This document shows positions 8,997 through 32,349 of a stretch of 33,395 nucleotides of DNA, one piece after another. Both the position numbers and the translations under genes were made by a program. How positions within the stretch are numbered: position 1 is the stretch's first letter; every line of letters starts with the position of its first letter. Below the pieces are notes generated by a model. The model saw only the letters and a list, made by a program, of their open reading frames with translations, searched no databases and was not told the DNA's origin. Source of the DNA: a virus; IMG/VR virus record IMGVR_UViG_3300030110_000895, positions 1-33,395 of that record; one strand, 5' to 3'.

Positions 8997-11900
8997 ACTA
9001 TTGGCCTACCAGCAACTTGCTCTGCAAAGTCTATACGTTCTTGAGATAGTGGATCTGTTGGTGATTGCATAGGTTGAACATCTGGTAGCTGTAGTTCTGA
9101 GGTTTTGAGTGGTGCAGTAACTTGTTCTCTTAGTTGTTGAAATATATTAAGACCTTCATCTGCTTGTTGTTGTATATCTTCATCTGTAATACCAACTGCA
9201 GTTTTACCTGTTTCAAAACCTTCTTTTACTAAATCAACACCAGACTCTACAAAAGACCCATCAACCATTCTAACACCATATTGTCTTGCTGCTCTTTCCA
9301 TCATTTGTATCATTTGTGCTATGGAGCCTGGATCTCCTTTAGTTAAAAGACCAACAAATTTAGGACTACCTAACAGACCACGAACAATAGTTAATCCAAG
9401 CAAGGCAGGCAATGTTTGTAAGGGTGCAAAAACAACAGCAGCACCAAGTCCCGCAGCTACCAAACCACCAGCACTACCACCTCTACCTAACTCGCCTTTG
9501 GTCAATACATCTACTTCTTTTTGAAAATTCCTCAAACCTCTAGTAATCTCTTTTCCAAACATAGCTTCTAAAGTTTCATCACCATAGCTGTTTAATGCTG
9601 TTTCTAGATTACCTGATTTAAAAATATCGTTAATCTTTCCTTTGCCATTAAAATCTACAGATCTTTTTAGCAGCTTCATCATGCTTGCTTGTTGTATGCT
9701 TTTGAAAACATCATCATCTACAGTGCCTTTTAAAGTGTTGATTACAGATGCGTTGCCAGGCCTAAATAAAGTATCAGTAGTAGCTTCTATACCTTTTTCA
9801 GGTAATTCAGATATTGCTCTGTTGGCTCTAAATTTTAAAACTTTTTCTGATTCATTAGCTAAGTTAGTTAGGCCTCTTATAAATGCTTTTCCTTGATCAC
9901 TTGCATCTAAACCTATATTAGTACCTGTAAAATCTTCTACAAGATCACGAAGATCTGCTGGTTTTAAATTTGGTTGTACTCTGTTTAAATTTCTAATAGT
10001 TTCTCTTACAAGTCTACCAGTTGTAATTCCTTGTGCATTTCTGAAAAGCTCATCTATTTTACCTTGTGCCGCCATATCTCTATCAAAGTTAAAAAACTGT
10101 CTAGCAAATGTCGTAAAGTTTATTGTTTGAGTACCACCATCTGTTGCTTTATATATAGCATCATCAAAAAACTTTTTCTTAAGTTGTGCTTTTAATCTGC
10201 GTTCTGTTACAGCTTCATCTGCTTTATTAATAGATTTGAGATATTCATCATAATTTCTAGTGGCTTTAAATATATCCTGTAAATCTTTTGCAGATCCACC
10301 TAAAAAAACTTTTTGATATATTTCATCAGGTGGATGTGAGCCTCTTGATGCGTTAGATATTATTTTTTGTATATGCAAGTTATCAAAAGGTTGCATTCTT
10401 TTTGCATTAGTTTTATTTGCTTCTCTTAATAATTCCAGCGAATCTTCAATTAATTTTTTATCTTGCTGTTGAATGGTAATGCCTTGTCTTTTTAATCTGG
10501 TATTAATCTTCTCCATAGATTCTTTTGCTAAATCAGTCATAATGCTTTTAGGATTATCTCTACCATATGAATCAATATATCTTTTTAAATCGTAAAGCAA
10601 TTCTCTTTGTGGCGATGCTCCAGGTGCTTCTGTAATATAAATATCTAAATCTTTTTGTAAGTTTCTAATTTGAAACAAACTCAATCCTTCACCTCTTGAT
10701 GCTTGACCAGGTGCAGTTTGTCTTATCAAATCTGAATACAAATCATCTAACTTATTGATGATGCCGCCTTTTACCAGAGGATCCTGTATGCTTAAATCAT
10801 AAGCTGGAAAATCATCTTGAAAAGATCTTATTCTTAATAATGATTTTTCAAAATATGTGTGTGCAGTTTCATTAATGGTTGCGTTAATTGCAGTTGCTAT
10901 ACCTGCTTCCTCTGGAGATTTTCGTATAAAATCACCAGTTGCTCTACCAACACGCTGCAACTCACCAAAATCATCTAACTCCAATTTGAAAACACTTCTC
11001 ATGTCTTTCATCATGTTATCGACTTCTTTATACTTGTTACCCATTTCCTTAGTAACAAAAGCTCTAGCTGTAGATACTGTTTCTTTTATTGTTTCGCCAA
11101 ATTCACTTCTGCTTGGTATCATTCCATAATTACCAACTTCTAAGGCATCTACTTGTACTTCATCTAATAATTTTTCTAATCTATTAGTAACATCTGTTTC
11201 TGCTTTTCTTAAGCTTTGCATTTTTTCATTGATGGATTTATCTAATCTACCTTTTTGTGACGCTGATATATATGAATCTAACGCTGCTTGTTCATTTTTA
11301 ATTCCTCTCATAACATAATTAAGTTCTGCCATAAGATAGGAAGCATTTGCTTTGTCCCTGTTATTACCAATAACTTGCTCAGCAATACTTTGTGTTCTTC
11401 CAGGCAACATTCTTTCTAGTGATTGCTGTGATGGTATGGCACCTGTCGTCTTGTTCATTTTCCAATCAAACTGTTTTACTTTGCCTTGTTTTATTGCACG
11501 TTTTATTTGACTTTCAGTGGCTTCTTTACCAAGTTCCATGTCTAATTTCATGACATCATCTACTGATCTATTTTGATTTTGTTGAAATAATATTCTTTTA
11601 TCTCGTGGGGCTGCTCTAGCACCTAGAAATGTGTTGTATAGCTTAAATACACCCTCACCAAGACCTTGACCTATAGTACCAAATGCAAATTCCTGCATAT
11701 ATAAATCGTTGATTTCATCTCTTTTTTGTAATTGAAAACCTTGTTGAGTTTCTACTACTTCTTCTTCTATAGCTTTACCCGCAGCACTACCAACACCTGC
11801 TCCAAACATTCTAGCCATAACATCTCTTTTGCCAAACAAATGAGTAAGACCTTTTATAATTCTTAGTTGAGGTACAAAAGCAGTCATCATACCTATGATA

Positions 11901-20510: not shown

Positions 20511-20894
20511 TTATTCTCCCTTTTTAGTTGTAGTAACTGTCCTATAATACACAACAACGTCTTTAAGTTCACTTATATACCTCTTTAGTTCTTGCATATT
20601 GTAAGCCATAACCTCGTAATCAGGTATTGTCATAGCTAAAAATACAAGCTCTCCCTCTTGTTCTTCTATGATTGCTAGTTGTTCGTCTAAGTTTTCAGGT
20701 GTTACTACAATCCACATAGGTTCTTGCAGATTGATTTCTCTCGGCATAACAGGCTGCACTATCTGTCTATCTAGTGGTTTAGCTGTTACTTCTATTTTTT
20801 TAGTCGGTAGCAGACTGCAACTGCAAGCCATCATCAAGATCGTCAACGACAACGCTGATTTTCTCAATATCTTCCATGATGTGTTTTGTGCCAT
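20511..20894 (-). CDS. outer-membrane spanin lipoprotein (Rz1-like)
   Basis: A 127-residue protein with an N-terminal signal (MAQNTSWKILRKSALSLTIL) running into MMACSC, where Cys24 or Cys26 would be lipidated. The gene starts inside the upstream coiled-coil membrane gene in another frame, overlapping it by 95 bases. This overlapping arrangement is the hallmark of Rz/Rz1. It would anchor in the outer membrane and join the inner partner to fuse membranes in the last step of lysis. The lipobox is imperfect (Met at -3), which leaves some doubt. It is longer than classical Rz1. Confidence 0.7.
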   Translation of the reverse strand: MAQNTSWKILRKSALSLTILMMACSCSLLPTKKIEVTAKPLDRQIVQPVMPREINLQEPMWIVVTPENLDEQLAIIEEQEGELVFLAMTIPDYEVMAYNMQELKRYISELKDVVVYYRTVTTTKKGE

Positions 20895-21195
20895 TATTTA
20901 TCTTCCTTTCCATTTCTGTTGGATCAGCTAATATTTTAGCTGCTAGTTCATAGTTTTGTATAAATTGTGTATATCTATTTAGTTCTCTTTGTGCTGCTTG
21001 GCTTTTTAGAGATAGTTCATTCATTTGTGTGGTTTGTAATTCAAAGTCTGCTTGTATAGATTTTATTGCTTCTTCTTGCGTTGCTATAGCACCTTCTAAT
21101 GCTAAATTATTAGCAGCTAATGTTTTGTTTTCGTTAAATAAATAGTAAGTTGTAAAACCTAAAAACAATATTATGCCTATGAAAACTTGTTGCAT
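20800..21195 (-). CDS. inner-membrane spanin (Rz-like)
   Basis: 131 residues with one N-terminal transmembrane helix (FIGIILFLGFTTYYLF, residues 4-19) and a long periplasmic coiled coil (residues 22-105). This N-in, C-out topology with coiled coil is the i-spanin type. Its downstream end embeds the start of the lipoprotein spanin in another frame. It sits just upstream of the spanin partner and lysozyme in the transcript, as in lambdoid lysis cassettes. The family is recognised by topology and context, since Rz proteins share little sequence. Confidence 0.75.
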   Translation of the reverse strand: MQQVFIGIILFLGFTTYYLFNENKTLAANNLALEGAIATQEEAIKSIQADFELQTTQMNELSLKSQAAQRELNRYTQFIQNYELAAKILADPTEMERKINNGTKHIMEDIEKISVVVDDLDDGLQLQSATD

Positions 21196-21428
21196 TATTC
21201 ATCCTCCTCAATAATGTAGTTAAGGCCAGTAGCACTTCTATATTCAATTAACTTTTTATCTAAAGTTCTGAATTTAAGATGTTTTTCTTTTTGTATAAGT
21301 ATTTTTTTTGATATGTAGGTCTTATCGTCAGTGTCACCATATTCTTTGTTGAAAGATACAGTAACTTTGTATCGTGTTTCAAATAAACTAAGAATCCAAT
21401 CGTAAAGTTTTTTTATTTTTTCTTTCAC
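21195..21428 (-). CDS. 77-residue conserved marine-phage hypothetical protein
   Basis: The preferred start is GTG 21428, overlapping the holin stop as TAGTG; a longer frame from 21482 runs over the holin gene. The product VKEKIKKLYDWILSLFETRY with YKVTVSFNKEYGDTDDKTY and KHLKFRTLDKKLIEYRSATG resembles a small protein recurrent beside lysis genes of marine cyanophages and pelagiphages. It has an amphipathic N-terminal helix and a beta-rich rest. Function unknown; lysis regulation is a guess from position. Confidence 0.65.
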   Translation of the reverse strand: MKEKIKKLYDWILSLFETRYKVTVSFNKEYGDTDDKTYISKKILIQKEKHLKFRTLDKKLIEYRSATGLNYIIEEDE

Positions 21429-21610
21429 TATACAAATCTTGATAAAACTAATGAAACTAAAATAAATGGGTAGACTGCCCATATCATATTTTCTAGTTTA
21501 TCAAAACGTTTGGCTCCATCTTCTAATCTTTTTTCAATATTAGCATATCGTATAGAACACTCTTTTTCATGTGTTTCTATTTTATTAATAGCTTCTCTGG
21601 ATGTTGTCAT
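21428..21610 (-). CDS. holin-like protein (XhlA-type topology)
   Basis: Sixty residues: a charged coiled-coil N-terminus (EKECSIRYANIEKRLEDGAK, RFDKLENM) and a single C-terminal transmembrane helix (IWAVYPFILVSLVL) with a short basic end. The order, coil then one helix, and the length match the XhlA-type holin-like proteins found near endolysins. Its start overlaps the cyclase stop by four bases. It is the best holin candidate in this cassette, although small membrane proteins at 26363-27323 are alternatives. Confidence 0.65.
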   Translation of the reverse strand: MTTSREAINKIETHEKECSIRYANIEKRLEDGAKRFDKLENMIWAVYPFILVSLVLSRFV

Positions 21611-23361
21611 ATAATTGTATAAATATTTATAGATTTTTCTTTTCCTTTTACTTTGATGCTTTTTAATTCTTTTAAAGTAATTTGTTCACTAAAGCCTTTA
21701 GATTTAATAGTATCATAACCTATTACAATATCTTCTCCAACTTCCTTAGTTGAGCTCTCAAGTCTAGCTGCAAGGTTTACCGCATCCCCTATAGCTGTGT
21801 AATCAAACCTAGTTTCACTACCCATATTACCAATAACTGCATAACCGCTATTGACTCCTATGCCTATTTCTACATCTAAATCAGCCATTTTTATTTTGTC
21901 TTGTATCTCTTTAGCACATAATACTGCTGAAGTTTCATGTCCTGGCAGGTCAATAGGAGCATTAAATATGGCCATCATAGCGTCACCTATGTATTTATCT
22001 ACCATACCGTCATATCTTTTAACGGTATCAGCTTGTATCGTAAGAGCCTTATTCATAATCTCAGTGACCTCCTCTGGTTCTAGTCTTTCAGACAAAGCTG
22101 TAAAGCCTCTTACATCTGTAAACAAGAATGTGCAGTATCTACGCTCACCACCCAGCACCAAAGAACTAGGGTCATCTTGTAGTTTTTTAACTTGTCTAGG
22201 ATCAAGATAATGTTCAAACTGTTTCTTAATCTGTTGACGTAATTTGTATTGTTGTCTAAACCGTAAATAGAATGCTATAGATCCAGCAATAAACTCTGAT
22301 AATAATGTCCAAGATACATCTACTAATAAACCTTTTGTAATAAAGTAGTAACCTAGACCACCTGTGCCAACCATTAAAAGAGTAGCTACGCTTATGCCCC
22401 AGGTTATACCAAGTAAATGTAAAGCAAACCATACTAAGGTAACAAATATAATTAACATGCCTAGTTCGGCAGCTAATGCCCAGTCTGGTATGTAAGGACT
22501 ATCTTGTATAAGTATTGATTCAGCTAGAGCTGCTTGAATTTTGTGAGGCTCTAATAAACCAACAGGCGTAGCAATTTGTGGCATGACTCCGTTAGCCGTA
22601 ACCCCAACAAACACAAACTTACCATTTACTTCCATCTCTTTTAGATTAGTTTGTGGTGTATCAACCCAGCTTATCCACTTACGGCCAAAGCTATCTGTCT
22701 TGACTGGAGGTATACCTTTTATTGATATTTCTGATATACCATTATCATTAGTTTTTATAATGTATGTTTTTACTCCAAATAAAGCTTTATATATTTGAGT
22801 GCCAAAACTTGGTATCCATTCGTTATTAGGTGTTTTGACCAAAAGAGGTATTCTTCTTACAAGTTGATCTATATCAGTGGGAGCAATAGCCAAACCCTGT
22901 AAGGTGTGATTGGATAAGAGAAGTAGGTTCTGCTTCACTCCCGTGCTTATTATACCACCATTATTGTCCCCAAGCACAACAGTCCCAGGTGTTTTAGGAA
23001 AATTACCTTTACCGTCTTCAAACATAGCTATAACAGATGGTGCGTATCCCAGAGATCTAGCAAAGTCTTCATCTCCACCCATTCTGTCTGCTTGCGGAAA
23101 AGATATAACCCAACCAACACCAAGAGCACCTTTGCCTAGTATATCTAATTGTATTTGTGCTAATCGTTTTCTTGGTAGTGGATAACCACCCTCACGCTCT
23201 ACATCTTCTTCTGTTATGTTTAGTATTGTAAAATTACCAGATTCTTGCGGTGTTTGTATAAGAGCATCAAAAGTTTTAAGCTTTAGTATTTCTGTTGGAG
23301 TACTTTGAAATAATAATGGTAAGGCTAGTATTATAACTACAGGTAATAATAGTCGTTTCAT
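21607..23361 (-). CDS. CHASE2-domain membrane adenylate cyclase (class III)
   Basis: A complete 584-residue sensor cyclase. An N-terminal helix (1-18) precedes a periplasmic CHASE2 domain (about 25-290), with FDALIQTPQESGNF and LPRKRLAQIQLDILGKGALG. Three closely spaced transmembrane helices follow at about 298-366, and then a cytoplasmic class III cyclase domain (400-584). The catalytic set is intact: metal Asp416 (FTDVRGFT) and Asp460 (DKYIGDAMMAIF), purine Lys456 and Thr522 (DYTAIGDAVNLAARLE), transition-state Asn529 and Arg533. Lys/Thr predicts ATP rather than GTP. It would make cAMP in response to a periplasmic signal. The upstream gene encodes a FecR protein, its usual bacterial neighbour. 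ATG follows that stop directly (TAAATG). A full-length, intact sensor cyclase in a phage late operon is exceptional. Confidence 0.9.
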   Translation of the reverse strand: MKRLLLPVVIILALPLLFQSTPTEILKLKTFDALIQTPQESGNFTILNITEEDVEREGGYPLPRKRLAQIQLDILGKGALGVGWVISFPQADRMGGDEDFARSLGYAPSVIAMFEDGKGNFPKTPGTVVLGDNNGGIISTGVKQNLLLLSNHTLQGLAIAPTDIDQLVRRIPLLVKTPNNEWIPSFGTQIYKALFGVKTYIIKTNDNGISEISIKGIPPVKTDSFGRKWISWVDTPQTNLKEMEVNGKFVFVGVTANGVMPQIATPVGLLEPHKIQAALAESILIQDSPYIPDWALAAELGMLIIFVTLVWFALHLLGITWGISVATLLMVGTGGLGYYFITKGLLVDVSWTLLSEFIAGSIAFYLRFRQQYKLRQQIKKQFEHYLDPRQVKKLQDDPSSLVLGGERRYCTFLFTDVRGFTALSERLEPEEVTEIMNKALTIQADTVKRYDGMVDKYIGDAMMAIFNAPIDLPGHETSAVLCAKEIQDKIKMADLDVEIGIGVNSGYAVIGNMGSETRFDYTAIGDAVNLAARLESSTKEVGEDIVIGYDTIKSKGFSEQITLKELKSIKVKGKEKSINIYTII

Positions 23362-24480
23362 TTAATCACTCTGAGTGATAGTAATTACACTATCACTACC
23401 TCCATTAACTTTGATTATATTAGAAATACCATCTTGAATCAAAATAACCGTATATGCATTATTGCCATCTAAATCTACTCTTACGCTCTCACTTACCTCT
23501 CTTCTCAGACTTATAACACTACCTGTAATAATTGCAGTTATTTGTGTGTCAGGATCTTTACCTAATAAAGTACCAGATATTTGTGTGCTGGTAGCTTGTG
23601 CTAATTGGTCTTCTTCTTCAGCTATAGCTAATGCATCTAGTACATTTAATAAATCTTCTAAATAATTTACATCAAGATAATTTATGTCTAGTTCTGTAAA
23701 CTCTAAGCTATCTTCTTTAAGGTAATCTTCTGCAAGAAAATCTATATCTAGGTCATTAAAGTCTAAAACACTATCTGTTTGTGTGCTTGTAGATTCCTCT
23801 TCTATAACTACCTCTTCTTTAGGTGGTGTAACAATAAGCATATTGTCTATAAGGTCTAGTGTAAGATCTAATATAACTGGTTTAGTAGGAGCTGACTCAA
23901 ATACGCTTACTGTAGTAGCTTCATACGGTTTATTAAGTAAAACAGTTCCCATAGCAGTAACTACCTCTATTTCGCCACTAGAAAGCCCCAGAGCGTCTGG
24001 TAGCAAAATAATTAGACTACGCCCTAGCTCATCAACTGTAGCCGTAAAATCAGTCCCACGTATAGCTATGTTAGCTGTTGGTGTTTTTAAAGTTATGTTT
24101 TGTTTATCTATACGGTTAAGATTACCTGTAATAAACCTAGCTGTACCAAGACCAAAGGTAAGGGCCATCTTTGCTTTTGACGGGTCAGGATCGTAGATGT
24201 ACTCATCAATAACTAACTCACTAAATTCTGTAAGTTTAACAATAGAGTCATCAAGAAAAGTGATAGCCATTCTGCCGTCTTTAGTAATAGCTTCGTCATT
24301 ACTTTGAATAGCAAACTTAAGGTTTGCATCATAAGGTTTATCTCTTAGGATTTGTGCTGAACCGTTTAGCTCAGATATATCTCCAATATCAACAGCTTGT
24401 GCTTGTACCTTGGTCGTTTTGAACGACACAAACAGTAGAAGCGGTAGTGCCAGATACAGATATAATTTTGAGCCAGTCAT
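23362..24480 (-). CDS. FecR-domain periplasmic protein with curlin-like tail
   Basis: 372 residues with a signal peptide ending AQA at about residue 29. A FecR domain spans about 33-195, including the diagnostic strand ITLKTPTANIAIRGTDFTAT. A strongly acidic region (235-292) has imperfect LDI(D/N)(F/Y)L repeats. The last 34 residues read like one curlin repeat: NAYTVILIQDGISNIIKV then GGSDSVITITQ, with Asn341, Gln349, Gly351, Asn354 and Gln370 at curlin spacing. FecR proteins relay periplasmic signals; here the partner is likely the adjacent CHASE2 cyclase. Start ATG 24480 overlaps the amyloid candidate by 92 bases, the length of its own signal peptide. Confidence 0.8.
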   Translation of the reverse strand: MTGSKLYLYLALPLLLFVSFKTTKVQAQAVDIGDISELNGSAQILRDKPYDANLKFAIQSNDEAITKDGRMAITFLDDSIVKLTEFSELVIDEYIYDPDPSKAKMALTFGLGTARFITGNLNRIDKQNITLKTPTANIAIRGTDFTATVDELGRSLIILLPDALGLSSGEIEVVTAMGTVLLNKPYEATTVSVFESAPTKPVILDLTLDLIDNMLIVTPPKEEVVIEEESTSTQTDSVLDFNDLDIDFLAEDYLKEDSLEFTELDINYLDVNYLEDLLNVLDALAIAEEEDQLAQATSTQISGTLLGKDPDTQITAIITGSVISLRREVSESVRVDLDGNNAYTVILIQDGISNIIKVNGGSDSVITITQSD

Positions 24481-25117
24481 TATCTAATGTACTCAGTTGT
24501 GAAATGTTAAACGTTCTTGAACCACCTGTGTGATCTAAATAAAAGTAACCACCTGCTGAAGCTGTAACTCCAGTACCAGTATATGTAACTGCGTTATCAT
24601 TACCGTCTATATCCATAAAGTTAGTTGCACCATCAATGTTAATGTTTGATGTTACTTGGTTGTTGTTACCTTGTATGATCCAATCTAAATCTAAACTTGC
24701 TGCTAGAGCAGTTGTACCTTGATTAAGTGTAAAAGTATTACTATCACCTGTAACTGCTATGTTTTGATTAGAACCATTAGAACTGTATGTATTTGTTGGA
24801 TCTACTTGGATGGTAAAAGTATTTGTATCGCCAGTAAAATTGTATAGTCCAGTAAAGTTATTAGCCAAAATGTCACCAAGAAACTTATTGGTATCACCAA
24901 TCATATTAATATCAAGTGTCATAGAATTGCCGTCTAAATCAAAAGGCGTAAGACTTCCCGCTGTAGATTGCAGACCACCTATTAAGTTTGATATACCTAA
25001 TTGTTCCAGATCTATGTTAGCTCCAGTACCAGACTGATCTACATATATTTCGTTGTCAGCCGCGAATGTTGTCAATGCACTCAGCATCACAACTAGGCTC
25101 ATCAATATCTTCATCAT
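24389..25117 (-). CDS. curlin-like secreted amyloid candidate
   Basis: 242 residues with a signal peptide MMKILMSLVVMLSALTTFAA cut near AFA|AD. Directly after it comes a canonical curlin-type pair: IYVDQSGTGANIDLEQLGIS with Gln28-x-Gly30, Asn34, Gln39-x-Gly41 and Asn44. Thereafter a motif G-(D/N)-x-N-x-(F/V) recurs: GDTNKF (74), GDTNTF (96), GDSNTF (124), GNNNQV (150) and GNDNAV (172). Asn, Thr, Gly and Asp dominate and lysine is scarce. The C-terminus has Cys230 and a terminal Cys242. Placed immediately downstream of csgF and csgG, it is the expected export substrate, either subunit or nucleator. GGAG lies upstream of ATGATG, so ATG 25114 is an equal start. Curlin by pattern, not by computed profile. 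Confidence 0.75.
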   Translation of the reverse strand: MMKILMSLVVMLSALTTFAADNEIYVDQSGTGANIDLEQLGISNLIGGLQSTAGSLTPFDLDGNSMTLDINMIGDTNKFLGDILANNFTGLYNFTGDTNTFTIQVDPTNTYSSNGSNQNIAVTGDSNTFTLNQGTTALAASLDLDWIIQGNNNQVTSNINIDGATNFMDIDGNDNAVTYTGTGVTASAGGYFYLDHTGGSRTFNISQLSTLDNDWLKIISVSGTTASTVCVVQNDQGTSTSC

Positions 25118-25955
25118 TTAATTCTACTCCTTCATTATCGTTTTGTAAAATCCAAAAACTTTTTTTATATCCTTGATTTATTATTTCTAAAACTCCACCT
25201 TCTATCGCTTTCATTAGTGCTATGGTGGATGACTCGTTTCTAGCATTACCAAGTTCTATTTCTACAAGCTCTGTACCTGCTTCTATAAACCTAAATACAT
25301 CTTCTGATTTACCGTAACTAAATATGGTTTTACGGCTAAGAACTTCTAACAATACTTCACCTGTAGCAACAGAAACCATACGCATACTAACCGTTATGTT
25401 GTCTTCTCTATACTGTACGCTATTGCCTATACCAAGATACCTAGCACCTATACCACCAGATTCTAGGTTGGCTTCATAAGATATAACAGCTCCTTCAATT
25501 AATATACCTGCAAATAATAACGGCCTAAGTGCTTTCTTTTTCTCATCTTCTGTAGCAGTTTGTTCTCTAGCACTACGAATTAACTGTCTTTCTTTTGTAA
25601 GGTTATCTAGTCCTACTCGCTCTACAACCCTGAAAAACTTGCCATCTCCTGCATGTTTGAGTGCTCTGATCAGTAATGCATTAGGTTGTTGTGTGATTGC
25701 GGTACTAAATAAAGCAAACTCGCTGTTGCTTTTTCTTTGTCCTGTTTGATCAGTAAAAGCAGTCGGATATACAGCTACAACAGGACTAACTTTAGGTATA
25801 GGTGCTTGTTTTAACTCTACAGATTGCAGATCTTGTATGTTTACAACGTTTTCAGCAGAAAACCTTTGCTCGTAGGTGTCTTCAAATTGGTCAAATATAG
25901 AACAACTAGAAAGTAAAAGTACCAATAGGTATTGTGATTTCAGTAACTGTGCCAT
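25056..25955 (-). CDS. csgG: CsgG-type outer-membrane curli secretion pore
   Basis: A clear CsgG, 299 residues against 277 for Escherichia coli. The lipoprotein signal ends LLLSSC with Cys18. The conserved core is present: LIRALKHAGDGKFFRVVERV, LDNLTKERQLIRSAREQTA, LIEGAVISYEANLESGGIGA, RYLGIG and MRMVSVATGEVLLEV, followed by FSYGKSEDVFRFIE. In E. coli it forms a nine-subunit outer-membrane channel that exports curli subunits. Of the E. coli constriction residues Tyr51, Asn55 and Phe56, only the Phe appears kept (here ALFSTA). The C-terminus is extended and acidic with two cysteines. It overlaps csgF by 50 bases and the amyloid candidate by 62. Confidence 0.95.
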   Translation of the reverse strand: MAQLLKSQYLLVLLLSSCSIFDQFEDTYEQRFSAENVVNIQDLQSVELKQAPIPKVSPVVAVYPTAFTDQTGQRKSNSEFALFSTAITQQPNALLIRALKHAGDGKFFRVVERVGLDNLTKERQLIRSAREQTATEDEKKKALRPLLFAGILIEGAVISYEANLESGGIGARYLGIGNSVQYREDNITVSMRMVSVATGEVLLEVLSRKTIFSYGKSEDVFRFIEAGTELVEIELGNARNESSTIALMKAIEGGVLEIINQGYKKSFWILQNDNEGVELNDEDIDEPSCDAECIDNIRG

Positions 25956-26418
25956 CTGCTTCCGTTATCTTAAGGGTTAGTGTTACGCCATCGCTAGTAT
26001 ACTCTATAGTATTACCTTCTAATGTTATGGTGCCAGAACTTTGTGGTGTTTCTCCAAACAGATTATTTACTAGCTGTCTTGATAACTCAGCATATACTCT
26101 TGATTCAAGATTACGCATAAACCTAGCTAATGTACTATTTTCTTTTTCTCTTTCTATCTCATCTTGTAAAGCTTTTATTTCTTCTTTAATGGTTAGTTTA
26201 CGAGTGTATTCTTGGTTTTCTATAGTAAGATAATGTGAAGAAGTGCCTATGCCATTAAAACTAGGCGACTTAAATTTGTGTACTATTTGATCTGCTTTTA
26301 CATTTATAGCAATAATACCTACAAACATAATTAGACCCATAAACATTATCCAGGCTAATATTCTAGTTTTTGCTGCTTCTTCCTTTATTAGCTCTTGTTT
26401 TGTCATTTTCTTTTTCAT
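25906..26418 (-). CDS. csgF: CsgF-like curli assembly factor
   Basis: A 170-residue CsgF relative. After a 19-residue charged start and a hydrophobic helix (ILAWIMFMGLIMFVGIIAIN) cut near VKA|DQ, the mature part begins IVHKFKSPSFNGIGTSSHYL. This matches the F-(R/K)-x-P-x-F-x-G segment by which E. coli CsgF inserts into the CsgG channel. Next come a charged coil (residues 77-98), the helix LARFMRNLESRVYAELSRQL and a beta hairpin end, SDGVTLTLKITEADGTVTEI. The coil is extra relative to E. coli CsgF. ATG 26418 follows GGAGTTAA. CsgF normally couples the pore to the surface nucleator. Confidence 0.85.
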   Translation of the reverse strand: MKKKMTKQELIKEEAAKTRILAWIMFMGLIMFVGIIAINVKADQIVHKFKSPSFNGIGTSSHYLTIENQEYTRKLTIKEEIKALQDEIEREKENSTLARFMRNLESRVYAELSRQLVNNLFGETPQSSGTITLEGNTIEYTSDGVTLTLKITEADGTVTEITIPIGTFTF

Positions 26419-26638
26419 TTAACTCCAATACAGTATTAACTTTCTCTTGTAATCGTATCATATCTTGATCTAACAGGCGAAGTTGGTCAGTTAGCCGTAT
26501 AATTGTTTTTTTCATTTCTGATACAGCAGGGTCTATAGTATTTGTAATAGTTTGCCAAACAAAGTAAACAAAGTAACCTAAACCTACTACCATTATGGTC
26601 GTAAAGCCAAACTTCTCTACTAATACAACTATGTCCAT
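26363..26638 (-). CDS. small membrane coiled-coil protein (paralogue 1)
   Basis: 91 residues: one transmembrane helix at about 9-30 (FGFTTIMVVGLGYFVYFVW) and a coiled-coil domain (40-80) ending in a basic tail. It aligns with its upstream neighbour: (M)xVxxL(V/I)EKxG, GYF(V/I)(F/Y), (N/D)xD(M/I)IR(L/I) and the closing xxLxL are shared, so the two are tandem duplicates. The type is common in marine phages and could be a holin, antiholin or pinholin partner. Start overlaps the neighbour's stop. Confidence 0.6.
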   Translation of the reverse strand: MDIVVLVEKFGFTTIMVVGLGYFVYFVWQTITNTIDPAVSEMKKTIIRLTDQLRLLDQDMIRLQEKVNTVLELNEKENDKTRANKGRSSKN

Positions 26639-26931
26639 TAATCACGTCTAGCGTCTATCTTACCGTCTTCTACAAAGTTTTCTGCTCTTGCTATTCTATC
26701 TAAGTCTGGTTTTAAATTTAAAGCACTTGATACTGAAGTATCTATTCTTATGATGTCGTTGTTCATTATTGATGCTCTTGTGATAAGCATCTTAGTTATA
26801 CCTTGTATTCCTTTAATATCACTTACAAGATTACCCATAAGTTGTTTCATAATAAGAAATATGAAATAACCCATAACTAGACCGCCTGCTATAGGTAATC
26901 CGACCTTTTCTATAAGGTCAAATACTTCCAT
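26638..26931 (-). CDS. small membrane coiled-coil protein (paralogue 2)
   Basis: 97 residues with a transmembrane helix at about 11-30 (LPIAGGLVMGYFIFLIMKQL) followed by a coiled-coil domain with IMNNDIIRIDTSVSSALNL. It shares the N-terminal VxxLIEKVG and the DIIRI block with the adjacent gene at 26363. Coupled to both neighbours by stop-start overlap. Function unknown; membrane position next to csgF and lysis genes suggests an envelope role. Confidence 0.6.
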   Translation of the reverse strand: MEVFDLIEKVGLPIAGGLVMGYFIFLIMKQLMGNLVSDIKGIQGITKMLITRASIMNNDIIRIDTSVSSALNLKPDLDRIARAENFVEDGKIDARRD

Positions 26932-27323
26932 TATTCTTTATTAGCTTCGCCTTTGAATGACTTGCTAGAACCTGATGTTCCTGCATATAAGCCAAACCAA
27001 GCCGCTCCTGCACCTACAACAATAGATATAAGGCCTGATTGTTCAAAGCTTGGTGACTCTAATGCCATAAACCAAAATGTTGTGTAGTAAAGCAAATACA
27101 TATAAACACTCAAAAACATTCTTGGAAATATTCTCCAGGAATCTACAGCTTGTGCTAGATGTATAACCTTTTGCCAAGGATTAACATTAGTTGTATCTTC
27201 TAAATCCCTTATTTTATCTTTAAGTTGTGATATTTCTTGGATCATAGCCATAAACTTATTGAGATCCATCTCAACTTCATTACGATCCATATCGCCGCCA
27301 AACCTTCCTTGTCCATCATTCAT
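26931..27323 (-). CDS. two-helix membrane protein with coiled coil
   Basis: 130 residues: a polar Gly/Asp-rich N-terminus, a coiled coil (18-45: MDLNKFMAMIQEISQLKDKI), then two transmembrane helices at about 70-90 (FLSVYMYLLYYTTFWFMAL) and 97-115 (GLISIVVGAGAAWFGLYAG) and a basic tail. Topology and position suit a holin-type or envelope accessory protein. It shares no clear sequence with the two downstream membrane proteins. Overlaps the thermonuclease stop by one base. Confidence 0.55.
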   Translation of the reverse strand: MNDGQGRFGGDMDRNEVEMDLNKFMAMIQEISQLKDKIRDLEDTTNVNPWQKVIHLAQAVDSWRIFPRMFLSVYMYLLYYTTFWFMALESPSFEQSGLISIVVGAGAAWFGLYAGTSGSSKSFKGEANKE

Positions 27324-27703
27324 TAGTAATCACCCCATACTTTTGTTTTTTTGCCGCCGTCATAAACTACAGCATGTCCTTCTTTTATTAATATTTTACA
27401 AATATCTTTACCATCTTCTGTATATGGTATGCCAATTATGCGTCCATATTTTCCTTTACCTAAAGATTTAACTTTAAAAGTACCGCAACATAACTCACCA
27501 AGCCTAGCCTTTGCAGCTAACCCTAGTTTTTTTTCAGCAAGATCGCGTGTCCTAGATTCTGGTGTATCAATACCGCTAAGTCTTACTCTTTGCTTGTGTA
27601 ATTTTACATCAAACCCTAGATCCAAAATACAATCAAACGTATCACCATCTACAATACGGTCTAATGTTGCGTTATATACAAAAGCATCTGGCGACTCAGA
27701 CAT
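27323..27703 (-). CDS. thermonuclease (Staphylococcal nuclease family)
   Basis: A 126-residue nuclease with all catalytic positions of the SNase fold: VDGDT (Asp19, Asp21), QRVRLSGIDTPES (Arg41, Asp46, Thr47, Glu49) and GKYGRIIG (Arg88). The C-terminal LIKEGHAVVYDGGKKTK loop fits the family. Calcium-dependent cleavage of DNA and RNA is expected. No signal peptide is visible, so it should act in the cytoplasm, probably on host DNA. Its start overlaps the upstream stop as TAATG. Length is close to a minimal SNase domain. Confidence 0.9.
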   Translation of the reverse strand: MSESPDAFVYNATLDRIVDGDTFDCILDLGFDVKLHKQRVRLSGIDTPESRTRDLAEKKLGLAAKARLGELCCGTFKVKSLGKGKYGRIIGIPYTEDGKDICKILIKEGHAVVYDGGKKTKVWGDY

Positions 27704-28016: not shown

Positions 28017-28222
28017 TTTTTATCCTCTGAAAGATCATTAGTTTGTGATTTCATACTTTCAGTTAAAGCTTGTTTATACATATTTAAACTTGGCTGTAAC
28101 TCATCAATCTCAAATAAATGCTGGTTTATTTTTGTTGTCAAGCTTTGTATATGTGCTTGAAAACTTTTTTGTTCAGGCGTAAATTCTACCTCAACGGTTT
28201 CTTTTTTTTCGGCTTTTGCCAT
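28013..28222 (-). CDS. 69-residue coiled-coil protein
   Basis: A lysine- and glutamate-rich start (MAKAEKKETVEVEFTPEQKS) is followed by a long helix (residues 20-50), like small phage proteins seen beside lysis or tail-fibre genes. Coupled to both neighbours. No domain recognised. Confidence 0.6.
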   Translation of the reverse strand: MAKAEKKETVEVEFTPEQKSFQAHIQSLTTKINQHLFEIDELQPSLNMYKQALTESMKSQTNDLSEDKK

Positions 28223-28926
28223 TATTGCACCTCCTCAGGTGTTGGTTGTTGCACATCCCAACAGTTTAAGTTGGATGCGATTGTTCGTCTTTCTCCTTCA
28301 CCTTTGAAGGGATAGACCATGTGTTGTAACCAAGAAGGGAATATTAATAACTTTCCTACTTCTGGGGTCATAACAAATGATTGAGCTGGTTTTAATCTTT
28401 CACTATCTATAACAGATACTTGTCCGTATTGAAACGCTATACATCCGTCTGAATGTCCACTTTCGTTGTATAGAGAATAAGTTGGTGATTGTGCATTAAC
28501 ATTACCTATTTGTGGTGGTACTTTAGTCCAAGCTGTTGTGGATATACCCATAAGAGTTTTAGTGCCGTGATCATGTATTGGGTTGTAATCACCATCATAA
28601 CTATGTACTGACCAAGTTTCGTCTATCTGAATTTGTTTAGGGCCTTTAAAACTATTACCCGAAGCAGCAAAATGATTAATATATTCAACACCAAGGCTGC
28701 AAATAAAATTATTATACTCAACCATTCTTTGATCATTGTGATCTAACAGTAACTGTTCTCCTTTATCTATTTGCCCTACTAAAGTATTAGCTAATGATTT
28801 TTTGTTTTTATCATGTTTATACTCGTCCATATAATCATTTACGCTATCAATCATGTCTTGTGGCATTTGTGTTTCTAACACATATACCGCAGGCATAGTA
28901 TGGATCTGAAAATCGCCTTCAGCCAT
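28222..28926 (-). CDS. 2OG-Fe(II) dioxygenase (2OG-FeII_Oxy_5 type)
   Basis: A 234-residue enzyme with YNPIHDHG (His118, His120), a GCIAFQYG strand and LIFPSWLQHMVYPF with His202, followed by GERRTIASNLN with the 2OG-binding Arg. The 'IFPSWLxHxVxPF..G..R..IxxN' ending is typical of this marine phage and bacterial dioxygenase group. Substrate unknown. A second, differently organised dioxygenase lies at 17169-17876, so the genome carries two oxygen-dependent modification enzymes. Context: between tail-fibre accessory genes and small membrane proteins. Confidence 0.8.
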   Translation of the reverse strand: MAEGDFQIHTMPAVYVLETQMPQDMIDSVNDYMDEYKHDKNKKSLANTLVGQIDKGEQLLLDHNDQRMVEYNNFICSLGVEYINHFAASGNSFKGPKQIQIDETWSVHSYDGDYNPIHDHGTKTLMGISTTAWTKVPPQIGNVNAQSPTYSLYNESGHSDGCIAFQYGQVSVIDSERLKPAQSFVMTPEVGKLLIFPSWLQHMVYPFKGEGERRTIASNLNCWDVQQPTPEEVQ

Positions 28927-29274: not shown

Positions 29275-32200
29275 TTATTCTCCTTTTAAAGTTTGTATTT
29301 CGGCTTTTAATTCTTCTACTTGTGTAGAAAGTTCTTTTACTGCATTTACAAGATACCAAGTTATGTTATCAGGATTTACAGTCTTTACTCCTGTTGATTG
29401 TTCTTGTACGACATCAGGTAAAATTGTTTCTATTTCTTGTGCTATAACTCCTAACTGTATGCCTTCTTTATCAATAGCTGCATGAGTTGGAATTTCTGTT
29501 ATTTCATCTTCAGTTTTGTACTCAAAGTTTCTAACTCTTATATCTTTTATAGCATCAAGACCAATAGTATTATCTACAATATTCTTTTTAATTCTTTGAT
29601 CAGAAGTTGTTGACCAAGATGATGAATTATTACCTTGATATACACCATTACTTGCACTTATAAATCCAGTATTATTACCTTTACCAGTTTGTGTAGAATT
29701 TGCTGTAGCAAGTACTAATTCACCAGAAGCATTACTAGCACCTGCTGCTGCTAAATAACCCATGTATATATTAAAACCACCATCTACTAAATTATTACCA
29801 GCTATATTTCCACCGATACCTATATTATATGAACCAGTAGTAACTGCATTAATAGCATTTAAACCAATTGCTATATTTTGTCCACCAGTAGTAATTGCGA
29901 TACCAGCACTTTCACCCATTGCAACATTATTTGAACCTTCTGTAACTGCTGTTAAAGCACTACCACCAAAAGCACAATTATTATTTCCTGTAGTATTACT
30001 TCCTAAAGAATCTTTACCGACTGATGTATTTAGAGAACCAGTTGTATTAGTAACCATTGAATTTAAACCAACAGCAGTATTATTACTTGCAGTTGTATTT
30101 GAAGATAATGCTTGTAAGCCAACAGCAGTGTTACCAGCACCAGTTGTATTAGCTGTTAAAGAACCTTTACCAACTGCTGTATTATTATCTGCTGTAGTAT
30201 TAGCATCTAATGCTGCTGCACCTACTGCGACATTATTAGCACCTGTGGTGTTTACTTTTAATGCACTTTCACCAATTGCTGTATTTGAAGAAGCTGTCGT
30301 ATTTGCACTTAAAGCTACAGCACCAAGAGCTACATTATCGGCTCCTGTCGTATTTGCGTCTAAAGCTTGATAACCAATTGCCGTATTATTTCCACCTGTG
30401 GTATTTGCTGCTAAAGCACTCGTACCTACTGCTGTGCCATTATTAGCTGTAGTGTTTACACGCAAAGCGTGTAGTCCTAATGATGCATTATTTTCACCTG
30501 TAGTAGTAGACTCTTGTGATTGATACCCAACTGCTGTGTTACTACCTGCTGTTGTATTAGATTTTAAAGCATCTTTACCTACAGCTGTATTCGCAGCACC
30601 TGTTGTGTTTGCTAACAATGCATTTGCACCTATTGCTGTATTGTTACTAGCTGTAGTGTTATTAGCTAAAGCATCATGTCCAATAGCTGTATTTTCAGTT
30701 CCTGTGGTGTTATCTTCCATAGCAAAAGTACCCACAACTGTATTTTTAGCACCTGTAGTGTTTACTCCTAAAGCACTATGTCCGACTGCTATATTTCTAT
30801 CTGCTGTAGTATTTGCATCTAGTGCTAATGAACCGACTGCTACATTAAAAGTACCTGTAGTGTTTGCTGCTAAAGCACTTGTACCTACTGCTGTATTACT
30901 TGAAGCTGTGGTGTTAGCAAACAAAGCATCTGCACCAACGGCTGTATTACTTGCACCTGTAGTGTTTGTTTCTAAGGCTTGATAACCAAGACCAGTATTA
31001 AAATCGGCTGTAGTATTTGCTGCAAGAGCTTCTTTACCTAATGCTGTATTACCACCACCTGTAGTATTTGCTAATAAAGCTGTAAATCCAACCGCAGTGT
31101 TATTTGATGCTGTTGTATTAGCTTCTAATGCAGCAAAACCTACTGCTACATTTGATGTGCCTGTAGTAGTAGCTTTTAAAGAATCAGCACCTATAGCTGT
31201 ATTATTTGATGCAGTTGTTAGAGCAGTAGCTGCTGATTGACCTACGGCTGTATTGTTTGAACCAGTTGTTATAGCATCACCTGCTAAACCACCAATAAGA
31301 GTATTGTCTGTGCCTGTGGTTATTGCATTACCTGCAATATGTCCTATTGCAACATTAAAAGAATCTGTAGCTGTTGTGAAGTTTTGATTAGCTAATGTCC
31401 CCATACCTACTGCAACACTTTTGCTGCCTAAAGTATCAGTTGTTAAAGATTCTTTACCAACAGCAACATTAAATGAACCTTGTGTTAAAGCATCTAAGGC
31501 TGATGCACCAACTGCTGTATTTGAAGCACCTGTAGTGTTTGATAATAATGCTAAATAACCAACTCCTGTATTATTTCCTGCTGTAGTATTAGCATTTAAA
31601 ACACCATGTCCAATTGCTGTATTAAAAAAACCTGTTGTATTTGATTCTAATACTTGTGAGCCTACACCTGTATTATTTGTTCCAGATGTTAATGCAGCAA
31701 AAACACTATCGCCTAGTCCTGTATTATTAGAGGCACTTGATAAAGTTCCTGTACTTGCATTTTGACTAATTAAAATACTGTCTACAAAATTAGTTGTATC
31801 AGCTTTTATAGTTACGCCATTAATTGTACTTGAAGCTGTAATAGCTCCAGTTACTCCTAATGTGCCACCAACAGTCATATCATCTGTTACGGTTAAATCA
31901 TCTTGTACTTTAAGATCTACAACGCTAAGACTAGCAAAAGCATCTACCATAGCTGCTCCTGATCCTGCTCCGTCTGAATAAATTGCTTTAGTATCTCCAG
32001 GTGGTATAGTAATATTTGCTCCACTGCCTTGAGAAATAATTATATTTTGTGATCCAGAAGTACCATTTTCAATAAACCAAAGCTTAGATACGGTATTAGG
32101 GCCTATAGTAATAGTACAAGCACTATCAAGCGTGCCTGTGTATTTTAAATAAAGTGATCTACCAGGATCTGTTGATCCGTCTGCTATTGTTGTTGTATGA

Positions 32201-32349
32201 GTGTCAGCGTTTGTTGTTATTGCTTCTGTACCAAAACTAAATGCTTCTGCTATAAGCTCTAAATTAGTATTCGTAGAGGTTCCCCAGGTTCCTGACTCAT
32301 CACCTGTCGCTATCTCTTTTAACCTTAAATCATTTACATAAGTTGCCAT
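29275..32349 (-). CDS. tail fibre with S74 self-cleaving chaperone
   Basis: 1024 residues. Residues 1-45 (MATYVNDLRLKEIATGDESG...) form a virion-attachment region typical of marine phage fibres. Residues 209-870 hold about 38 repeats of 17 residues (consensus NTAVGxxALxANTT(G/A)xx), predicted to form a trimeric beta-roll shaft like bacterial YadA heads. From about 910, TTSDQRIKKN begins a Peptidase_S74 intramolecular chaperone: Ser916 and the Lys five residues later are the self-cleavage pair, with EYK, LGVIAQEIETILPDVV and a C-terminal coiled coil. The chaperone folds the trimer then releases. It probably recognises the host surface. Repeats are described separately. Confidence 0.85.
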   Translation of the reverse strand: MATYVNDLRLKEIATGDESGTWGTSTNTNLELIAEAFSFGTEAITTNADTHTTTIADGSTDPGRSLYLKYTGTLDSACTITIGPNTVSKLWFIENGTSGSQNIIISQGSGANITIPPGDTKAIYSDGAGSGAAMVDAFASLSVVDLKVQDDLTVTDDMTVGGTLGVTGAITASSTINGVTIKADTTNFVDSILISQNASTGTLSSASNNTGLGDSVFAALTSGTNNTGVGSQVLESNTTGFFNTAIGHGVLNANTTAGNNTGVGYLALLSNTTGASNTAVGASALDALTQGSFNVAVGKESLTTDTLGSKSVAVGMGTLANQNFTTATDSFNVAIGHIAGNAITTGTDNTLIGGLAGDAITTGSNNTAVGQSAATALTTASNNTAIGADSLKATTTGTSNVAVGFAALEANTTASNNTAVGFTALLANTTGGGNTALGKEALAANTTADFNTGLGYQALETNTTGASNTAVGADALFANTTASSNTAVGTSALAANTTGTFNVAVGSLALDANTTADRNIAVGHSALGVNTTGAKNTVVGTFAMEDNTTGTENTAIGHDALANNTTASNNTAIGANALLANTTGAANTAVGKDALKSNTTAGSNTAVGYQSQESTTTGENNASLGLHALRVNTTANNGTAVGTSALAANTTGGNNTAIGYQALDANTTGADNVALGAVALSANTTASSNTAIGESALKVNTTGANNVAVGAAALDANTTADNNTAVGKGSLTANTTGAGNTAVGLQALSSNTTASNNTAVGLNSMVTNTTGSLNTSVGKDSLGSNTTGNNNCAFGGSALTAVTEGSNNVAMGESAGIAITTGGQNIAIGLNAINAVTTGSYNIGIGGNIAGNNLVDGGFNIYMGYLAAAGASNASGELVLATANSTQTGKGNNTGFISASNGVYQGNNSSSWSTTSDQRIKKNIVDNTIGLDAIKDIRVRNFEYKTEDEITEIPTHAAIDKEGIQLGVIAQEIETILPDVVQEQSTGVKTVNPDNITWYLVNAVKELSTQVEELKAEIQTLKGE
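29740..31725 (-). repeat. coding tandem repeats in the tail fibre
   Basis: About 38 tandem copies of a 51-base unit code for N-(T/V)-A-(V/I)-G-x-x-A-L-x-x-N-T-T-(G/A)-x-x. From the ninth copy the residue after TT strictly alternates Gly/Ala, giving a 102-base super-period, with breaks at copies 19/20, 26/27 and 33/34. One copy (7) has a four-residue insertion. Bases are diverged between copies, so the array is old rather than newly expanded. Confidence 0.9.

Follow-up and report, generated by a model that had tools for sequence, protein, structure and literature searches.

Phage-encoded curli are known, yet unexplained. Wittmers et al. 2022 (PMC9599517) described a curli module in podoviral and myoviral pelagiphages, and in that report and in Zaragoza-Solas et al. 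2020 (PMC7029224) it begins with one or two "histidine kinase" genes, followed by genes for CsgF, CsgG, a curlin-type protein, a FecR protein and an adenylate cyclase, with CsgC, CsgD and CsgE lacking. GenBank records of the Pelagibacter phage HTVC008M and the Methylophilales phage Melnitz hold the same genes, in the order tmB, tmA, csgF, csgG, curlin, FecR, curlin 2, cyclase. The stretch of DNA analysed here (the window, 33,395 nucleotides of a viral IMG/VR record) shares this order and fits the arrangement csgF-csgG-csgA/B-FecR-(csgA/B)-AC given by Wittmers et al. An earlier note on this DNA had proposed that the complete set with substrate and cyclase might be undescribed; it is already published, and the window adds another carrier to a gene set reported from other ocean phages. 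The phage of the window is a podovirus and only a remote relative of HTVC023P (33% for one structural protein), and no near DNA match to the window was found among phage records. HTVC008M and Melnitz, in contrast, are myoviruses, carry an extra curlin gene that separates FecR from the cyclase, have their module away from the spanin and lysozyme genes, and encode CsgG proteins 45-47% identical to that of the window. The host of the window's phage would be SAR11 if one goes solely by where related modules occur, in Pelagibacter phages from culture and on a contig of a SAR11 MAG.

The type VIII systems of bacteria (E. coli, Alphaproteobacteria) share CsgG, CsgF and the curlin repeat family with the phage module. 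Unlike these systems, the window lacks CsgE and a CsgD-type domain, as the earlier note had seen: a domain search of the window gave no match to CsgE (PF10627), a gate that such systems do not always have, to a LuxR-type (GerE) domain or to a cNMP-binding domain. Capture by phages of a ready-made bacterial csg-FecR-cyclase operon was considered and rejected, since neither FecR nor a CHASE2 cyclase was detectable near the bacterial csgFG loci examined. No combined bacterial operon was found in the literature on curli, FecR and CHASE2.

All five proteins of the claimed island are encoded by open reading frames at the positions originally assigned, on the minus strand like every other feature located below, and lie within the lysis cassette in the order csgF, csgG, curlin, FecR, cyclase. 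CsgF (170 aa, 25906-26418; PF10614, 3.2e-16) has an N-terminal hydrophobic segment followed by the CsgG-plug motif FKSPSFNGxGTSSH, in which F49, P52, F54, G56, G58, S60 and H62 are invariant or nearly so within the family; the plug segment aligns weakly (E 0.074) with the E. coli CsgF of 6L7A. The outer-membrane pore CsgG (299 aa, 25056-25955; PF03783, 1.4e-45) has a lipobox, LSSC, whose lipid-bearing Cys is kept in 152/153 aligned rows, and the whole protein aligns with structures of CsgG from E. coli (5.9e-67). Wherever contigs cover the region, CsgF, CsgG, curlin and FecR occur together (155/155 and 69/69 loci), and independent contigs with the same gene order show that the window is not chimeric. 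Median dN/dS ranges from 0.10 to 0.18 across the five proteins, and gene order, intact catalytic residues and low dN/dS are kept over hundreds of loci. Computation establishes gene identities, conservation and purifying selection, as it does the module exchange described below.

The secreted substrate (242 aa, 24389-25117), which has a signal peptide, was one of two proteins, with CsgF, for which the earlier note had required a profile match. On its own the window's protein has no significant Pfam match, Curlin_rpt included. Its orthologue in Melnitz, however, scores above the Curlin_rpt cut-off, 6/24 members of its family match Curlin_rpt, and a profile built from the phage family retrieves the curlins that adjoin bacterial csgFG. 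The AlphaFold model is all-beta (pLDDT 78.6, pTM 0.74) and its best BFVD matches, to viral proteins named "Curlin associated", reach TM 0.65-0.70; against the PDB it gave generic beta-helix matches only, none with E < 0.001, so that no solved structure matches it significantly. Because of the Melnitz orthologue, the phage-family profile and the matches of the model, we assign the protein (median dN/dS 0.10) to the curlin family, an assignment made through its relatives rather than through a Pfam match of its own. Pore, plug partner, secreted substrate and cyclase are each supported by family matches.

The FecR-domain protein (372 aa, 23362-24480; PF04773, 1.6e-8) consists of a signal peptide, the FecR domain (matched by 35/35 relatives), a disordered linker and a low-confidence beta C-terminus. 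The earlier reading of this C-terminus as a curlin-like tail was not supported: Curlin_rpt was matched by 0/35 relatives, profile comparison gave a probability of 0.9%, and AlphaFold placed the tail at pLDDT < 60. The likeness is a Q-x-G ... I-x-I-x-Q pattern seen by eye only. A part in fibre anchoring or sensing is more likely for this protein than one as an iron regulator.

Immediately before csgF lie two small paralogous proteins with a membrane segment and a coiled coil, tmA (91 aa, 26363-26638; phrog_18771, 2.7e-25) and tmB (97 aa, 26638-26931; phrog_18771, 9.8e-25). tmA orthologues stand immediately upstream of csgF in HTVC008M and Melnitz, tmB is 46% identical to its orthologues there, and a member of the family is found upstream of CsgG in 155/155 loci. 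A dN/dS of 0.53 obtained for tmB is unreliable, as two paralogue groups were mixed in the set. The pair occupies the place of the published histidine kinases and, in contrast to that description, neither protein has a Pfam match to a kinase domain. Judging from these sequences, the published "histidine kinase" genes are probably tmA/tmB-type proteins and the kinase name an over-annotation.

The lysis-cassette setting of the module was correctly recognised. Downstream of it lie the inner-membrane spanin Rz (20800-21195; phrog_739, 4.9e-12), the overlapping outer-membrane spanin Rz1 with a lipobox (20511-20894; phrog_812, 1.4e-11) and a phage lysozyme (20066-20572; PF00959, 1.1e-50), together with p95 (21195-21482), a small protein whose N-terminus has a single hydrophobic segment and which is conserved between cyclase and Rz in some loci. 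The text of Wittmers et al. 2022 mentions no lysozyme, endolysin or holin. The holin also claimed for this region is less clear: the two candidates, p60 after the cyclase (60 aa, 21428-21610; a coiled coil and one C-terminal membrane segment by hydropathy, with a weak match to phrog_1193 "hemolysin", E 0.044) and p130 upstream of the module (130 aa, 26931-27323; phrog_10198, function unknown, 1.4e-21), match no holin family. A staphylococcal-nuclease-like protein (27323-27703; PF00565, 5.4e-13) also adjoins the slot bordered by p130.

The csg block occupies an exchangeable cargo slot between the holin-like gene and the spanins. Among 80 contigs of sister phages, 30 have the csg module in the slot beside the holin-like gene, 33 have an alternative module and none has both; the gene following p130 is tmB in 27/80 and altA in 25/80. 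Well-supported tree branches force at least about nine exchanges between the two modules, and close contig pairs have clean flanks around the exchanged module. The N-termini of the alternative proteins are signal-like, and Asn makes up 18% and Thr 17% of altA. Homologues of altA and altC also occur in Mosig. Two contigs first taken for empty sites, L356 and L369, were discarded as such: in L369, and by its altC also in L356, the alternative module lies across p130, on the opposite flank. In the available parts of PMC9599517 and PMC7029224 no mention of this Asn/Thr-rich module was found, and its repeated swap with the csg block within the lysis cluster, the two never occurring together, looks new.

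We hypothesize that the window encodes, among its lysis genes, a curli-type (type VIII) secretion module that makes extracellular fibres or matrix, and we regard this as the probable reading. Late expression, assembly, secretion and fibre formation, as well as the role of the module, are what we infer. CsgG would form the outer-membrane lipoprotein pore, which CsgF would plug and guide with its conserved N-terminal segment. Sec would carry the curlin-family protein to the periplasm and CsgG would let it out, after which it would most likely build a matrix or beta-solenoid fibres, both on infected cells and in the lysate. FecR, always found with curlin, would anchor the fibres or sense them, and the CHASE2 cyclase would be an optional add-on. 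Family matches, the curlin fold, constant co-presence, the dN/dS values, module exclusion and exchange, and synteny in other phages support the fibre reading. Against it stands the lack of clumping in OM43 cultures infected with Melnitz (PMC9004378). CsgE is absent, the curlin of the window lacks a Curlin_rpt match or a significant solved-structure match of its own, and the aligned CsgG does not retain the Tyr51/Asn55 constriction of its E. coli counterpart; these observations also weigh against fibres.

The earlier note had also offered a pore that aids lysis, and for Melnitz it has been proposed (PMC9004378) that CsgG times lysis as a pinholin-like or depolarising pore, with curlin incidental. 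The position of the module between the holin-like gene and the spanins in the window's lineage agrees with this, but the csg core block can be missing while lysis genes remain: contig L400 lacks csgF to FecR yet has the holin-like gene, spanins and lysozyme, and alternative-module phages without csgG likewise retain their lysis genes. Moreover, the module is away from lysis genes in most myoviral-type loci, curlin and FecR are always retained with CsgG under purifying selection, and CsgF retains its CsgG-plug motif. As a lipoprotein pore, CsgG belongs to the outer membrane and not to the inner one. We therefore consider a lysis-timing pore unlikely, and favor an extracellular-matrix or adhesion role since the csg block alternates in its slot with an unrelated secreted module.

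Equally improbable, in our judgment, is signalling as the main purpose, in which FecR and CHASE2 would sense the state of periplasm or fibre and the cyclase would reprogramme the host via cAMP. The cyclase (584 aa, 21607-23361; PF05226, 1.1e-25; PF00211, 1.4e-18; Pseudomonas CyaB 3r5g, 9.7e-28) is intact, as claimed: the class III catalytic set is complete, with D416 and D460 for metal, K456 and T522 for substrate, and N529 and R533. Among 91 sequences D416, K456, D460 and R533 are invariant, N529 is kept in 89, and residue 522 is S, T or D. The pair also exists on its own outside phages: FecR adjoins a CHASE2 cyclase in 4/31 bacterial-genome loci, counted within short flanks of 1.5 kb. The proposed periplasm-to-cAMP unit is nevertheless doubtful because the cyclase is dispensable, being present in 63/69 loci and missing in 6/69 that keep FecR (69/69), and because, if SAR11 is the host, its relatives nearly lack the corresponding proteins. 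In the family of the SAR11 MAG, represented by 118 genomes, cNMP-binding domains occur in only 5 and class I cyclases in none, and class III cyclases are matched in 3 (2 above cut-off, both on phage-like contigs); the window itself encodes no cNMP-binding protein.

Both PMC7029224 and PMC9599517 suggested that CsgG is a channel by which the infected cell takes up large nutrients or cofactors, and the lack of the CsgE gate would suit this; we find it quite improbable, as it leaves unexplained the universal curlin, CsgF and FecR and the exchange with another secreted-protein module. That the genes were captured as a bacterial operon and now have no function is most improbable of all, for although Alphaproteobacteria have csgFG operons, the selection and conservation seen over hundreds of loci speak against it.

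Returning to the fibre reading, related phages fill the slot with an unrelated secreted module, and the selected function would therefore lie outside the cell, in adhesion or aggregation, in host capture or in keeping rivals out. More tentatively, and with rather less confidence than in the fibre reading itself, we propose that the lineage has a dedicated lysis-cassette slot for exchangeable "extracellular matrix" modules, functional alternatives made late that would render infected cells or their lysate sticky, so that progeny meet hosts in dilute seawater. Genome size limits, instead of equivalent function, may account for the mutual exclusion.

For the biology of these phages, the published idea of cAMP regulation loses ground if SAR11 is the host, its family being almost devoid of cyclases and cNMP-binding proteins. 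Natural losses, of the cyclase or of all but the small membrane proteins, tell core from accessory parts of the module. The swap at one site provides a comparative handle on curli function, insofar as either of two distinct exported-protein sets can fulfil whatever purpose the slot has.

On the minus strand of the window, transcription runs from tmB (26638-26931) to tmA (26363-26638), paralogous membrane coiled-coil proteins, and on through CsgF (25906-26418), CsgG (25056-25955) and a secreted protein of 242 aa (24389-25117), then a FecR protein (23362-24480) and lastly the CHASE2 cyclase (21607-23361), with p60, p95, Rz, Rz1 and lysozyme following on the same strand in that order. Adjacent genes overlap by ∼50-90 bases from tmA through FecR. 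The five-gene block described in the earlier note is thus in place, with Pfam matches for CsgF, CsgG, FecR, CHASE2 and the cyclase, and Rz and Rz1 are backed by PHROGs matches. Since this gene order is repeated in contigs of other samples, L003 (taken from a 44-kb contig) among them, with most proteins at 70-98% identity, the window is not chimeric, a possibility which that note had raised. The window also encodes a 1024-aa fibre (29275-32349, minus) that carries numerous repeats of the NTTGxxNTAVG type and, at its C-terminus, a peptidase S74 (endosialidase chaperone) domain. Near the module lies a 2OG-Fe(II) oxygenase (28222-28926, minus; PF13759, 2.5e-15). In the cultured Pelagibacter phage HTVC008M a phytanoyl-CoA-dioxygenase-domain gene immediately precedes the csg block.

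Close CsgG relatives are encoded in 417 viral-contig stretches, and 194 HTVC008M-type relatives were found in viral contigs. The neighbourhood survey suggested earlier revealed that the module genes recur together: CsgF and a tmB-type protein upstream in 155/155 fetched loci, and downstream curlin and FecR in 69/69 and the cyclase in 63/69. The cyclase is lacking in L086, L213, L232, L237, L242 and L245, where spanin or lysozyme genes follow FecR in all but L213, and no cyclase without FecR was seen in the fetched loci. The core block is csgF-csgG-curlin-FecR, with tmA/tmB and the cyclase as accessory parts; median dN/dS for the five module proteins is 0.10-0.18. Some module-bearing contigs sit inside bacterial MAGs (L086, Maricaulis; L087, Neomarinimicrobiota; L088, Flavobacteriaceae; also L089-L091 and L097), and are probably phage contigs binned with their hosts or mis-binned.

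With p130, the holin-like gene immediately before tmB, as anchor, a scan returned 80 contigs, of which 30 carried csg, 33 an unrelated module, none both, and 17 neither (several of these incomplete). The exclusion is significant (Fisher p 2e-8, for contigs that extend 2.5 kb or more beyond p130), to be interpreted with some caution as the contigs are not independent, and it could also be due to genome-size limits. The alternative module of these sister phages (L383:10384-14067; L390:10302-14112; also L386, L394, L410 and others) encodes altA (∼374 aa, signal-like N-terminus, 18% Asn, 17% Thr), altB (∼750 aa, signal-like N-terminus) and altC (∼120 aa, membrane and coil). The gene directly after p130 is tmB 27 times and altA 25 times among these contigs. 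On a p130+Rz+Rz1 tree (65 contigs) the csg label requires 11 changes and the alternative label 10, at least 9 being forced by well-supported branches. Close pairs display clean replacement of one module by the other: L030 (csg) and L386 (alternative) share 91% as far as p130 extends and 84-94% beginning at Rz, and a single site is seen in three states, with csg in L257, the alternative module in L394 and tmB-tmA alone in L400. L399 and L400 (10381-10925), with tmB and tmA but no csg gene between p130 and Rz, are natural absences of the core block that separate tmA/tmB from the secretion genes. Three Pelagibacter phages in culture, HTVC023P, HTVC202P and Mosig, have homologues of altA and altC on either side of a different middle protein; in HTVC023P these genes immediately precede one for a peptidase M15. 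None of the three was among the CsgG search matches in phage records.

The window CsgG can be aligned along its length with that of E. coli. Of the E. coli constriction residues Tyr51, Asn55 and Phe56, the first two are replaced and Phe56 is retained, and hence the phage constriction may be unlike that of E. coli. A CsgG relative also occurs in OR851715.1, a record of only 1499 bases labelled “Salmonella phage” that is probably host DNA. CsgF retains an FxxPxFxGxGxSxH motif, in a segment that aligns, weakly, to CsgF of 6L7A; the matching E. coli segment sits inside the CsgG barrel. The retained motif speaks against the suggestion in PMC9004378 that phage CsgF may have stopped pairing with CsgG.

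The 242-aa protein, for which the earlier note claimed a curlin-like nature, is itself without a significant Pfam match, but is taken as a curlin-family substrate through its family, orthologue and fold. Curlin_rpt is matched by 6/24 family members (E 0.1 or better), the orthologue in the cultured Methylophilales phage Melnitz is above the cut-off, and the phage-family profile picks up proteins adjoining bacterial csgFG that are strong curlins (2.9e-56, 6.7e-13, 2.6e-30). AlphaFold predicts an all-beta stack (pLDDT 78.6, pTM 0.74). Among viral models its top matches are three proteins that bear the name “Curlin associated”, with TM 0.65-0.70 and E values as low as 1.3e-5; a PDB fold search gave generic beta-helices only. 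The Melnitz record (MZ577097) has two annotated curlin-associated repeat proteins (7734-8453 and 9512-10528), with which Pfam concurs, contrary to the paper's text, which describes a phage without csgA and csgB (PMC9004378).

The “curlin-like tail” of FecR has only a visual resemblance in its favour. AlphaFold models the FecR domain well, then gives a disordered linker and a C-terminus of poor model quality. The CHASE2 protein is likely an active adenylate cyclase, since it has D416, D460, K456, T522, N529 and R533 (four of them invariant across 91 sequences) and its closest relatives of solved structure include Pseudomonas CyaB (3r5g). FecR adjoins CHASE2 cyclases in 4/31 bacterial loci with short flanks (L119, L126, L134 and L140); the csg genes are absent within these short stretches, and a stand-alone signalling pair is possible. 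In the class to which a Sphingomonas genome belongs, 7/385 genomes have a CsgF match, and phage-derived profiles found neither FecR nor cyclase near bacterial csgFG (13 stretches, two being the same locus). The phage module therefore unites two units found apart in the examined bacteria. As for the proposed cAMP-signalling unit, the cyclase residues are intact, but if SAR11 is the host there would be hardly any known receiver: cNMP-binding domains occur in 5/118 genomes of the family of a Pelagibacter MAG and are absent from the window. Within that set no class I cyclase was found and class III cyclases were matched in 3/118, two above cut-off, both on phage-like contigs, one of which also has FecR, spanins and lysozyme; CsgG, too, occurs in these two genomes and in no others of the set.

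In the account of Wittmers et al. (PMC9599517), csgF is preceded by one or two histidine kinases. At that place the window, HTVC008M and Melnitz encode products of about 90-115 aa, with one membrane segment each in the window's tmA and tmB. Because a kinase-domain search of these small proteins gave no match, the name is probably an over-annotation, judged on the genes of these three phages.

The complete set, which the earlier note thought possibly undescribed, has already been reported (PMC7029224, PMC9599517, PMC9004378), and no clumping was observed in one culture experiment (PMC9004378). In the accessible parts of these three papers we found no mention of the exchange slot. As far as checked, what is new is modest: that slot, the division into core and accessory parts, the missing cAMP receiver and the correction of the kinase name. 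The window adds a member, from a lineage of podoviruses that has no close phage record. The module, probably expressed late, is best read from its sequence as serving curli-type secretion and fibres in a role outside the cell, the main new argument being that its slot exchanges with another secreted, low-complexity module.
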